NCBI RefSeq assembly: GCF_030419005.1
Contig: NZ_CP106951.1
Coordinates: 3,658,001 to 3,722,000 of the forward strand
Direction: 5' to 3'
Length of the DNA: 64,000 nucleotides
Origin: Eleftheria terrae
GTDB taxonomy: Bacteria; Pseudomonadota; Gammaproteobacteria; Burkholderiales; Burkholderiaceae_C
A program made the position numbers and the translations under genes. Below the pieces are notes generated by a model that was not told the DNA's origin, ran no database searches, and saw only the letters and a program-made list of their open reading frames with translations. Below, piece by piece: positions 3,014 through 52,576 of this stretch. How positions within the stretch are numbered: the stretch's first letter is position 1; the number at the start of each line of letters is the position of its first letter.

Positions 3014-3529
3014 ATGGCAAAAAACAAGCTTAAAAGCAAGACCCCGTCCTCCGTGCTGCCGGTCAACATCGGCATCGGCGAGGAAGACCGCGCGGCGATC
3101 GCCGACGGCCTGAACAAGCTGCTGGCCGACACCTTCACGCTCTACCTGACGACCCACAACTTCCACTGGAACGTCACCGGCCCGATGTTCAACACCCTGC
3201 ACACCATGTTCATGGAGCAGTACACCGAGCTGTGGAACGCGGTCGACCCGATCGCCGAGCGCATCCGCGCACTGGGCCACACCGCGGCCGGCTCCTACAA
3301 GGACTACGAGGCGCTCAGCTCGCTGGGCGACGCGCCGAGCCAGCCGCCCAAGGCCGACGAGATGATCCGCATCCTGGTGCAGGGCCACGAAGGCGTGGCG
3401 CGCACCGCGCGCGGCCTCTACCCGCTGGTGGAGAAGGCCTCCGACGAGCCCTCGGCCGACCTGCTGACCCAGCGCCTGGACGTGCACGAGAAGACCGCCT
3501 GGATGCTGCGCAGCCTGCTCGAAGAGTGA
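3014..3529 (+). CDS. dps: Dps-type mini-ferritin, DNA-binding protein from starved cells
   Basis: Dps forms a dodecamer that oxidises and stores iron using peroxide and coats DNA. The 171-residue protein has a lysine-rich N-terminus (MAKNKLKSK), suited to DNA binding, and the ferroxidase segment NFHWNVTG. Counted without gaps, H51, H63, D78 and E82 match E. coli numbering of the inter-subunit iron site, but position 67, normally Asp or Glu, is Met (LHTMFMEQY), with Glu at 68. The start follows a CCGGAG ribosome-binding sequence. It lies just after oxyR and is probably under its control. The structured RT leader follows its stop codon. Confidence 0.95.
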   Translation: MAKNKLKSKTPSSVLPVNIGIGEEDRAAIADGLNKLLADTFTLYLTTHNFHWNVTGPMFNTLHTMFMEQYTELWNAVDPIAERIRALGHTAAGSYKDYEALSSLGDAPSQPPKADEMIRILVQGHEGVARTARGLYPLVEKASDEPSADLLTQRLDVHEKTAWMLRSLLEE

Positions 3530-3592
3530 GCCGCGGCCGGCCCGCGCCGCTATGATGCCGCCGCGGCCGCCCGCCAAGGGTGCCAGCGCGGA

Positions 3593-3726
3593 AGGTGCAG
3601 ACCGACCTCGCGCCGCGGGGCCTCCCCGCGGTCATTCCAGAACTTGTCTCTCCGGGGCGTGAGCGGGACGGCGCAGGTGCCGCACGGCTCACGCATCACC
3701 GGCAGGTTGGCGGGCGGTACGCACCT
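3593..3726 (+). ncRNA. Candidate retron-type msr-msd RNA upstream of the reverse transcriptase
   Basis: Three nested inverted repeats lie in the 212 bases between dps and the RT. First, AGGTGC (3593-3598) pairs with GCACCT (3721-3726) and encloses everything, like the a1/a2 repeats of retrons. Second, CCGCGGGG (3613-3620) pairs with CCCCGCGG (3624-3631) over a 3-base loop. Third, GCGTGAGC (3657-3664) pairs perfectly with GCTCACGC (3687-3694), and inside it CGGC (3669-3672) pairs with GCCG (3679-3682), giving a long two-tier hairpin with symmetric 4-base internal loops. The right end is 15 bases before the RT start. A guanosine follows the left repeat at 3600. Retron RNAs have this order, but GC-rich DNA gives chance stems and the outer repeat is only 6 bp. 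Confidence 0.35.
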
Positions 3727-3741
3727 GATTCCCCGAGTCCC

Positions 3742-5085
3742 GTGAAGCGACGCCCCATCGACCTCCTGGCCCGCGCCGTGGCGCGCACCGCGCTTGCCGG
3801 CGAGCGGCAGGCGCCGTCCTTGCGCGCCCGCCTGGCGGCCTGCATCGACGCTCCGCCGGCCTGGCTGGACGCACTGTCGCAGCAACTGGGCGGCTGGACG
3901 CCCGGCCGCTGGCAGCGGCACGACCTCGACACGCTGGCGGCCTGGCTGCGGCAGGACGCCGTCTTCCTGTCGGTACAGGGCGATCGGCACCCGCCCTTCG
4001 TGCGGCGCTACCTGCTGCGACCGGTGTATGCGGGGCGGCCGGCGCCGCTGGGCCTGGACGGGCTCGGCCTGCCGGCCCTGGCCACGCCCGGTGAGCTGGC
4101 TGCCTGGCTGGAGCTGTCGCGCGCCGGGCTGTGGCGGCTCTGCCTGCCCGCCGCCTGGCAGCGCCGGCGGCCGCTGGGCGAGCAGCACTACCGCTTCGCC
4201 CCTTGCGAGAAGGCCAGCGGCGGGATGCGCCTGATCGAGGCCCCGCATCCCCACCTGAAAGCCGTGCAGCGTCGCCTGCTGGACGGCCTGCTGGCCCGCG
4301 TGCCGGTGCACGAAGCGGTGCACGGCTACGTGGCCGGCCGTTCGGCGCGCAGCCATGCCGAGGCCCACCGGGGCCAGGCGGTGCTGCTGCGCTTCGACCT
4401 GCAGGACTTCTTCACCAGCGTGAGCGCCTCGCGGGTGCATGCGCTGTGGTCCACGCTGGGCCATCCGCTGCCGGTGGCCCGCGCCCTGACCGCCCTGTGC
4501 ACGGTGGCCACCCCGGAGCCGGTGCTGCAGCGCCTGCGCGAGGAGGGTGGCCTGGGCTGGCCGCAGGCGCAGCGCCTGCGCGACGCCCACTTGCCGCAGG
4601 GCGCGCCGACCTCGCCGGCGCTGGCCAACCTCTGCGCCTTCGGCCTCGACCTGCGGCTGGCCGCGCTGGCCGAGGCTTTCGGCGCCCGCTACACCCGCTA
4701 TGCCGACGACCTGGTGCTGTCCGGCCCGCCGGCCTTGCTGAAGCACGCCCGCCGCATCGAGGCCCGGGTGGCTGCCATCGCGCTGGAGCAGGGCTTCCGC
4801 CTCAACCACCGCAAGACGCATGTAGCGCCGGCACACCGGCAGCAGCGGGTCTGCGGCATCGTCGTCAACCAGCGGTGCAACCTGCCGCGCGAGGAATTCG
4901 ACCGCCTCAAGGCGGTGCTGCACCGCTGCATGGTGAGCGGGCCGTCCGCGGTGCAGCTGGCGCTGCCGGCGGGCAGCACGCTGCGCGAGCACCTGCAGGG
5001 CCGACTGGGCTGGGCCACCCAGCTCAATGCCGCCAAGGCCGCGCGCCTGGCCCGGCTGTACGAGCGCATCGACTGGAACCGCTGA
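3742..5085 (+). CDS. Retron-like reverse transcriptase with N-terminal extension
   Basis: A predicted RNA-directed DNA polymerase of 447 residues from the GTG at 3742. Palm motifs are motif A FDLQDFF (D219), LPQGAPTS (284-291) and the catalytic YADD (320-323) in YTRYADDLVLS. The order APH..LK..QR, HGYVAGRS, TRYADD, GF..N..KT is that of retron RTs. The retron X signature NAxxH reads HAEAH (205-209) and the Y signature VTG reads VCG (370-372). About 110 residues precede the usual retron start region; myxobacterial retron RTs also carry extensions. There is no maturase or endonuclease domain. The frame is open back to an ATG at 3580, but that would place a structured region inside the coding sequence. 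Neighbours are dps and ubiA, and no obvious effector gene is present. Confidence 0.88.
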   Translation: MKRRPIDLLARAVARTALAGERQAPSLRARLAACIDAPPAWLDALSQQLGGWTPGRWQRHDLDTLAAWLRQDAVFLSVQGDRHPPFVRRYLLRPVYAGRPAPLGLDGLGLPALATPGELAAWLELSRAGLWRLCLPAAWQRRRPLGEQHYRFAPCEKASGGMRLIEAPHPHLKAVQRRLLDGLLARVPVHEAVHGYVAGRSARSHAEAHRGQAVLLRFDLQDFFTSVSASRVHALWSTLGHPLPVARALTALCTVATPEPVLQRLREEGGLGWPQAQRLRDAHLPQGAPTSPALANLCAFGLDLRLAALAEAFGARYTRYADDLVLSGPPALLKHARRIEARVAAIALEQGFRLNHRKTHVAPAHRQQRVCGIVVNQRCNLPREEFDRLKAVLHRCMVSGPSAVQLALPAGSTLREHLQGRLGWATQLNAAKAARLARLYERIDWNR

Positions 5086-5118
5086 GGACGGCACCCGGCT
5101 TCTCTCTACACTCTCGCC

Positions 5119-5985
5119 ATGACAGCCCTTCGCCTCAAGCTTCCGCTCTACCTGCAGCTGATCCGCTGGGACAAGCCGGTCGGCACCCTGCTGCTGCTGT
5201 GGCCCACCCTGGCAGCGCTGTGGATCGCCGCCGGCGGCTTCCCGGGCTGGCACCTGCTGGCGGTGTTCACCCTCGGCACCTTCCTGATGCGCTCGGCCGG
5301 CTGTGCCGTCAACGACGTGGCCGACCGCGAGTTCGACCGGCATGTGAAGCGCACCGCGCAGCGCCCGGTCACCAGCGGCGCGCTGCGCAGCACCGAGGCG
5401 CTGGCCTTTGGCGCCGCGCTCGCGCTGCTGGCCTTCCTGCTGGTACTGACGACCAACCGCGCCACGGTGCTGTGGTCGTTCGCCGCACTGGGCGTGACGC
5501 TGCTCTATCCCTACACGAAGCGCTTCTTCTCGATGCCGCAGGCGGTGCTGGGGGTGGCCTTCAGCTTCGGCATCCCGATGGCCTTCGCGGCGGTGCAGGG
5601 CGAGGTGCCGGCGCTCGCCTGGCTGCTGCTGCTGGGCAACCTCTGCTGGGTGGTGGCCTACGACACCGAATACGCGATGGTGGACCGCGACGACGACCTG
5701 AAGATCGGCATCCGCACCTCGGCCATCACCTTCGGCCGCCACGACGTGGCCGCCGTGATGGCGCTTTACGCGGCCTACCTGGCGGTGTGGGGCGGCGTGG
5801 GCTGGCAGCTGGGCCTCGGCTGGCCCTGTGCGCTCGGCCTGGCGGCCGCCGCGGTGCAGGTGGCCTGGCACTACACGCTGATCCGCGACCGCGGCCGCGA
5901 GGGCTGCTTCCGCGCCTTCCGCGAGAACCACTGGCTGGGCCTGGCGGTGGCGGCTGGCATCGCGGCGGGCCTGGCCTGGGGTTGA
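5119..5985 (+). CDS. ubiA: 4-hydroxybenzoate octaprenyltransferase UbiA
   Basis: UbiA attaches the polyprenyl tail to 4-hydroxybenzoate in the inner membrane, the second step of ubiquinone synthesis. The 288-residue protein is very hydrophobic, with about eight predicted membrane helices. Both Mg-diphosphate-binding aspartate motifs are present: NDVADREFD near residue 70 and [13 protein letters not shown] near residue 180, with RPVTSGAL between them. It starts 33 bases after the RT stop on the same strand, so the two may share a transcript although their functions are unrelated. Confidence 0.97.
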
Positions 5986-6194: not shown

Positions 6195-6359
6195 ATGATG
6201 TGGCAACCCGTGCTCAAGCTGGCGGGCACGACAGTCGGTGTGGGCGGCCTGTGGGCCGCCGTCTCCAGCGTGCCGGAGCCTGAGACCTTTGCCCTGCTGT
6301 TGGCCGGGCTGTTGATGGTGCTGGTGCTGTCCAGGCGCTGCGAGCCCGGCTCGGACTGA
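6195..6359 (+). CDS. Miniature PEP-CTERM domain protein (54 residues)
   Basis: A small gene with an AGGAG ribosome-binding site at 6184-6188 and tandem ATG codons at 6195 and 6198. The product is an N-terminal hydrophobic stretch (about residues 8-24) followed at once by the sorting signal VPEPETFALLLAGLLMVL and a short tail containing SRRCEPGSD. PEP-CTERM tails (VPEP, one membrane helix, basic tail) are recognised by exosortase EpsH/XrtA in exopolysaccharide-producing bacteria. There is essentially no room for a mature domain between signal and tail, which is unusual. A sigma-54-like promoter lies just upstream. No exosortase gene is in the window. It could be a minimal surface peptide or the remnant of a larger protein. 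Confidence 0.72.
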   Translation: MMWQPVLKLAGTTVGVGGLWAAVSSVPEPETFALLLAGLLMVLVLSRRCEPGSD

Positions 6360-51602: not shown

Positions 51603-52576
51603 ATGAGCCGGCCGCTGCTGGAGGTCGCCGGGCTCGGCGTCACGCTGCCGACGGCCCGCGGCCCGGTGCCGGCGCTGCAGGGCCTGGACTTCACGCTGGA
51701 GGCCGGCCGCAGCCTGGGGCTGATTGGCGAGTCGGGCAGCGGCAAATCGCTCACGGCGCTGGCCCTGATGGGGCTGCTGCCCGAAGGCGCGCAGGTCTCG
51801 GGCAGCATCCGGCTGGCCGGGCAGGAACTGGTGGGGCTGGACGAAGCGGCGCTGTGCCGCCTGCGGGGCAACCGCATCGCCATGGTGTTCCAGGAGCCGA
51901 TGACGGCGCTCAACCCGCTGCACACGATTGGCGAGCAGGTGGCCGAGCCATTGCGCCTGCACCGCGGGCTCAGCCGCCGTGCGGCCCGCGCCGAGGCCTT
52001 GCGCCTGCTGCAGCGAGTGCGGCTGGGCGATGCGGCGCAGCGGCTCGATGCCTGGCCGCACCAGCTCTCGGGCGGGCAGCGCCAGCGCGTGATGATCGCG
52101 ATGGCGCTGGCCTGCGGCCCCGAGCTGCTGATTGCCGACGAGCCCACCACTGCGCTGGACGTGCGGCTGCAACGCGAGATCCTCGACCTGGTGGCGGAGC
52201 TGGTGGAGGAACGCGGCATGGCCTTGCTGCTCGTCTCGCACGACCTGAACGTCATTGCGCGCAACGTCGAGCGCATGCTGGTGATGTACGGCGGCCACAT
52301 CGTCGAGTCCGGGCCCACCGGCGAGGTGTTCGCGCGGCTGGCCCATCCCTACACCCGTGGCCTGCATGCGGCCCGGCCGCAGATCGGCGTCGGCCATGGC
52401 GTGCGGCTGCCGGCCATTGCCGGGCGGGTGCCCGCCTTGGGCCTGCTGCCGCCCGGCTGCCCGTTCTCCGACCGCTGCGCCTTCGCGCTGCCGGCCTGCC
52501 AGGCGGCACTGCCGCCGGCCTTCGAGGTCGGCCCGGGCCACCGGGCGCGCTGCATCCGGCTGCCGGAGGTGAGCAC

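Follow-up and report, generated by a model that had tools for sequence, protein, structure and literature searches.

A structured RNA co-inherited with a divergent retron-fold reverse transcriptase suggests a retron lineage without an adjoining effector gene in Burkholderiales

What is a reverse transcriptase (RT) with altered retron signatures and no neighboring effector doing among the core genes of a bacterial chromosome? We analyzed a 64,000-nucleotide stretch of Eleftheria terrae (contig NZ_CP106951.1, positions 3,658,001 to 3,722,000; the window), in which an initial annotation had placed a retron-like RT at 3742–5085 and proposed it to be a domesticated, vertically inherited lineage within a housekeeping region. 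The open reading frame (ORF) was confirmed at 447 amino acids, between dps (3014–3529) and ubiA (5119–5985), in a neighborhood that also contains proC, putA, and a LysR-family gene. Directly upstream we found what that annotation had not noticed, a structured RNA at 3563–3722. We consider it very likely (probability about 0.85), from sequence comparison, that the RT and this RNA form a retron in which the RNA serves as the template; the reading is based on covariation in the RNA, its recovery in all 12 held-out relatives, the silence of the RNA model at viral loci, and the co-occurrence of RNA and RT. The parts of the element are as follows:

3551–3556 (+): TATGAT, a −10-like hexamer just 5′ of a1, candidate promoter of the noncoding RNA (ncRNA)
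3563–3722 (+): retron-type ncRNA (a1-msr-msd-a2) of about 160 nt, covarying, in 34/34 aligned loci
3563–3577 (+): a1 arm, pairing with 3707–3722 (15 pairs counted, one bulge)
3578 (+): invariant G just after a1, candidate 2′-5′ priming guanosine (G22 of alignment A1)
3612–3632 (+): msr-like hairpin GGGG-loop-CCCC (helix 2; 98.7% of cells paired)
3657–3694 (+): msd-like hairpin, predicted RT-DNA template (helices 3 and 4; 12/12 pairs compensated)
3695–3706 (+): conserved linker ATCACCGGCAGG, several columns invariant or nearly so
3707–3722 (+): a2 arm, complement of a1
3742–5085 (+): RT, 447 amino acids, GTG start (RVT_1; PADLOC models RT_other 415 bits, RT_outgroup 394 bits)
3742–4053 (+): N-terminal helical domain (residues 1–104; predicted fold), candidate effector, sensor, or docking module
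4054–5082 (+): retron-type RT fold (residues 105–447; structure comparison)

A covarying RNA upstream of the reverse transcriptase

We aligned the upstream stretches of 33 related loci with that of the window using MAFFT and evaluated them with RNAalifold and a pair counter. The same RNA element was present in all 34. In total, 93.7% of the cells were paired, vs. 75.2% in shuffled and 38–47% in slid versions of the data, and changes on both sides of a pair accounted for 172 cells, vs. 47 in shuffles. Compensatory change was seen in 21 of the 28 pairs, and none of the 500 shuffles reached the observed level on any measure. Helix 2 is biased by selection, as its GGGG/CCCC hairpin was the anchor for picking the sequences, while helices 1, 3, and 4 are unbiased; the last three contained 6/7, 7/7, and 5/5 covarying pairs, respectively. 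The base at G3578 was the same in 34/34 loci. By analogy with known retrons it would be the priming guanosine, and the geometry of the a1/a2 pairing makes 3706 the predicted first template base.

The −10-like hexamer starts 22–29 nt 5′ of the a1-terminal CAAG in 25 of the 34 loci (24 nt in the window), a raw count without shuffle control in which four loci were not anchorable. Taking the hairpin plus 95 nt as the RNA end, the first in-frame start codon follows after 8–51 nt in 30/34 loci and after 92 nt in one, the RT frame being broken in the remaining three (L059, L065, and L074); because choosing the first start codon favors short distances, this shows only that the frame reaches up to the RNA. 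One database protein of the family, P0049, seems to start within the RNA, toward its 3′ end: an N-terminal LTHHPQV resembles the LTHHRQV read in frame 5′ of the window RT, and the RNA can thus pass for coding sequence.

An RNA model, R1, was trained on the 34 aligned loci. It matched the window RNA with 113.8 bits, and in that search no other match in the genome reached E ≤ 0.1; the top stray match within the window had an E of 0.036 (51997–52069). R1 also matched 5′ of the RT in 12/12 held-out relatives, the definition of "relative" being fixed after the fact, with the weakest match at E 0.003. Three of these represent other families of the class (L077, L078, and L079) and, together with L001 (Gammaproteobacteria bacterium 45_16_T64, where only the central part of R1 matched), gave 74 to 38 bits; three Burkholderia replicons gave 65–74 bits; and L219–L223 gave 80 (L220), 71 (L219), 45, 33, and 19.5 bits (E 9e-17 to 0.003, the match in L223 being weak at E 0.003). 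Loci with other RTs remained silent. Among 80 viral loci (518 kb), the best 80 of 354 viral-contig relatives, the single match had an E of 0.93; five further nonfamily RT loci (L213–L217) gave none at E ≤ 0.1, and L003, L009, L010, and L080–L085 none below E 0.3.

Under stricter filters, the RNA was detected in 31 of 399 genomes of the family: the 30 that carry the RT, three of them with broken RT frames, and G305. The 30 RNA-positive genomes trained R1, and the silence of the other 368 is independent of the training. In G305 (locus L210), the RNA is well conserved (96.8 bits), and the RT gene behind it lacks an internal segment. Judged by alignment and model searches, a structured RNA with paired ends is located directly before, and co-inherited with, a retron-fold RT. 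No matching ncRNA was found in Rfam 15 and no description of the RNA in the literature searched, a search that did not extend to the two main retron surveys.

The protein, its lineage, and its losses

The RT had 3552 homologues at E ≤ 0.001 (7995 candidates scored), which excludes chance. Its residues 105–447 superpose on retron RTs, the 14 top structural rows all being retron RTs, and the catalytic D219, LPQGAPTS (284–291), and YADD (320–323) are at the residues initially claimed. PADLOC models RT_other and RT_outgroup were the two best for the window RT, where both extend into the N-terminal part, and for 5/5 further members scanned, in agreement with the retron-like label. The best numbered type for the window RT was retron type XIII (281 bits), 134 bits under RT_other, and RT_other exceeded RT_XIII by at least 119 bits in all six proteins. 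The lineage is already in PADLOC, annotated but unexplained. No type-specific effector gene or fused effector domain, as in the 13 numbered retron types, was found among the three nearest genes on each side or by a Pfam search of the N-terminal domain. RT_other is broad, as a second RT of the same genome also scores 346.5 bits. The latter (L003; G000:C2:3766300-3767250, −; open frame of 727 amino acids) lies about 44 kb past the window end. Both of its signatures are canonical (NAAPH, VTG), its N- and C-terminal parts are long, and its C terminus contains hydrophobic stretches; it has a copy in G002 (L010), and R1 finds no RNA at L003.

In a phylogeny of 45 RTs (L045, L065, L074, and L082 left out), the 38 RNA-bearing RTs formed one clade with 100/100 support, separate from the seven others, and all nine genera with at least two rows were monophyletic. 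A second tree of 56 rows, including the held-out relatives and RNA-negative RTs, contained one branch splitting the 43 RNA-bearing RTs from 13 others (94/99; 90% of bootstrap trees). The proposed vertical inheritance therefore stands within genera, but the RT is more than a divergent domesticated enzyme, because it carries a retron-type ncRNA.

The trees also place the altered signatures, HAEAH at 205–209 and VCG at 370–372, which are present as described. At the NAxxH position, the first residue was H, F, or Y in 37 of the 38 clade rows and N in one, the second was A in 34, and the final H was retained in all 38. The VTG position read VTG in nine rows, VCG in nine, ITG in six, LTG in five, LAG in four, and otherwise in five; the VCG rows include the window's genus, VCN or VCH is found in three more, and VAG and LGG also occur. 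The seven RTs outside the clade all have NAxxH and VTG. Within this alignment, HAxxH is typical of the clade, and VCG of one sub-lineage within it. Validated retrons vary too, NAxxH and VTG each being kept in 14/16 according to one account (PMC6868368), and a survey of retron-clade RTs gives NAxxH in 59% and VTG in 47% (PMC4244168); altered motifs are thus no argument against a retron.

The RT is patchily distributed. With the window's own genome counted in, it was found in 7/40 relatives at E ≤ 0.001 (including G015, which has no more than a weak RT match), 30/399 family genomes at 1e-60, and 8/300 order genomes at 1e-80. At 1e-50, 10/369 class genomes and 7/299 phylum genomes matched, of which four and two, respectively, belong to the RNA-bearing clade and the rest are other retron-like RTs. 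This presence in few genomes, with several copies broken, does not bear out the "housekeeping" label. The retron is also located on large replicons of Burkholderia cenocepacia, B. pyrrocinia, and B. arboris (L098, L099, and L100); the gene table lists the RT for B. pyrrocinia and contains no more than two features for the B. cenocepacia and B. arboris records.

Most genera share a locus position internally, the exceptions being L066 in g144 and also g35, where little is shared. From one genus to another the position is usually different (g94 and g14 have a common one). The immediate order dps-RT-ubiA, examined for conservation in the 34 loci, was confined to the window's genus. The RT adjoins ubiA in 4/22 genera and lies at most three genes from a release-factor-like or related GTPase gene in 4/22; these two neighbors are perhaps a trace of the ancestral position. 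Other families are found near the RT in at most 3/22 genera. The GTPase neighbors (L059, L061, L053, L055, and L045) are release-factor-3-like or related translational GTPases, and the clustering merges related GTPases. Judged from trees and neighborhoods, the lineage is patchily kept, Burkholderiales-centered, effector-less, and mostly inherited within genera.

In the window's genus, the RT is found between dps and ubiA in three of nine genomes. RT-less G006 retains a degenerate RNA between the two genes (L088 2405–2573, −; 50.9 bits, several broken pairs), which indicates loss, not insertion. In G001, G004, and G005, dps lies close to ubiA without the RT-RNA unit, and in G007 and G008 the two genes are separated by other sequence. 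Within 3400–5250, no direct repeat of at least 14 nt was found to flank the unit on both sides. A sporadic insertion with flanking repeats, named initially as grounds for rejecting the proposal, is hence matched in its sporadic presence and not in its repeats. The composition is native, since the GC content at third codon positions (0.93) falls in the 0.89–0.95 range of 10 neighboring genes, as the initial annotation had noted for base use; the overall GC of 0.755 is the highest among the genes tested.

The N-terminal extension, estimated initially at 110 residues, comes to about 100, as residue 47 of Ec86 aligns to residue 149 of the RT. Structure prediction gave a confident helical domain: when the domain was folded alone with 30 sequences, residues 11–90 were predicted helical with block mean confidence scores (pLDDT) of 92–98. 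The window protein had no Pfam match in this domain and no significant PDB fold match, and no solved retron RT covered residues 1–104 in the structure comparison. The nonsynonymous rate (dN) of the N-terminal part exceeded that of the RT part in 13/13 within-genus pairs (split at residue 140; L045, L065, and L074 excluded), with whole-gene dN/dS of 0.17–0.45, a sign of selection on the gene. Compared with L042, DNA identity was 77.5% for the RT and 74.5% for the RNA vs. 87–91% for oxyR-like, dps, and ubiA; compared with L043, the values were 73.0% and 73.6% vs. 83–87%. The faster divergence of RT and RNA is in keeping with an accessory gene exposed to changing pressure; weak constraint would give the same.

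Mechanism, function, and competing explanations

By the retron model, the ncRNA would be transcribed, perhaps from a promoter just 5′ of a1, and the a1/a2 pairing would place G3578 next to the template base G3706. The RT would bind the msr hairpin, prime from the 2′-OH of G3578, and copy the msd hairpin into a branched RT-DNA of roughly 50–60 nt. Less certainly, the RT-ncRNA-DNA particle would act as an accessory anti-phage guard, with either the RT's own helical N-terminal domain or a host protein from an unlinked gene standing in for the operon effector. We regard such a defence role as roughly an even bet; patchy retention, broken copies, and change faster than in the flanking genes fit an accessory immune gene. 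That the N-terminal domain and RT-DNA replace a separate toxin, making this a single-protein retron, is a tentative proposal that we hold at somewhat less than even odds. Its setting would be a chromosomal lineage that extends across Burkholderiales and some other Gammaproteobacteria.

Several observations weigh against the retron interpretation. The RNA is only moderately stable as a single sequence (3571–3727; z −2.43, 3/200 shuffles as low), and this fold, of a stretch omitting the first eight a1 bases, lacks the a1/a2 pairing; the structural case therefore rests on covariation. A σ70 scan that also required a −35 element found no promoter in the window, leaving the −10-like element without a matching −35. 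Transcription and RT-DNA formation are predictions from sequence. On the protein side, the usual signatures NAxxH and VTG are replaced in the window RT, the N-terminal fold points to no function, and no NCBIfam model reaches its cut-off (retron St85 RT, 173.5 of 235 bits). No effector gene adjoins the RT at the locus, as first noted, the three nearest genes on each side include no family shared by more than 4/22 genera, and no defence island was seen. Nor is there a tie to phages: phage records show 24–31% identity to the RT (15 listed of 16), and the best 80 of the 354 viral-contig relatives 25–39% over part of it.

Judged by published descriptions, some myxobacterial retrons share features with the element in the window. 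We know of no effector for Mxa1 (Mx162), Sau1 (Sa163), or Nex2 (Ne144). All three are described as having an extended RT N terminus, as in the window RT, and Mxa1 and Sau1 as likely vertically inherited with host-like codon use, as here (PMC6868368). The msd of Mxa1 is far longer (162 nt), and the priming G is within CAGC in Mxa1 and Sau1 (PMC6868368), whereas the candidate G here is within CAAG.

Of the competing explanations, two survive best, and we judge each unlikely. One is a domesticated retron with a host housekeeping role, such as regulation by small DNA, in place of defence. Chromosomal positions, vertical inheritance within genera, native composition, and the lack of a recurrent effector would all suit it, but a domesticated function sits poorly with an RT carried by only 30/399 genomes and repeatedly lost or broken, and with evolution faster than in the neighbors, fastest in the N-terminal part. 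The other, equally improbable in our view, keeps the retron and moves its effector elsewhere in the genome. A toxic effector, released upon infection, is described as the typical partner of a retron's RT and ncRNA (PMC12548924), and here no candidate recurs nearby; some retrons are reported to seem without nearby effectors (PMC8867640). The window RT likewise has no adjoining effector. The known retron types have their effector either within the operon or as a fusion to the RT, which counts against an unlinked one: Retron-Ec86 (Eco1) and Ec78 (Eco7) have separate effector proteins and Ec67 (Eco2) a fused effector domain, and the window RT differs from all three.

Far less probable is that the RNA, lying directly 5′ of the RT frame in 34 loci, acts in cis as a leader of the RT gene, either an attenuator or a site of autoregulation, while the RT copies something else: the a1/a2 end pairing, the invariant G, the covarying msd-like hairpin, and the retron-fold RT make up a retron's anatomy, and a search of window positions 3450–3800 gave no terminator-like site. 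A group II intron, diversity-generating retroelement (DGR), or defence-associated RT (DRT) has a negligible probability, the matches being weak (group_II_RT_mat, 38.9 bits, cut-off 300; Drt2, 37.5, cut-off 390; Drt3a, 22.9, cut-off 200), the RNA and the fold refuting it, and placement inside group II or DGR RTs, named initially as a further ground for rejection, not being found.

If the retron interpretation is correct, an unexplained RT family becomes retrons with a defined RNA, which makes RT-DNA production directly testable. Retrons without an operon effector would raise the question of whether the effector has been lost, has been fused, or is supplied by an unlinked gene, and the RNA model, which detects remnants of lost retrons, would provide a means to trace their gain and loss. 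New RTs for producing single-stranded DNA in cells may also come from retrons of this kind, high in GC and vertically inherited.

Outside the retron, a small ORF of 54 amino acids is located between ubiA and proC (6195–6359, +); its C-terminal PEPETFALLLAGLLMVLVLSRR is presumably a PEP-CTERM-like sorting signal.
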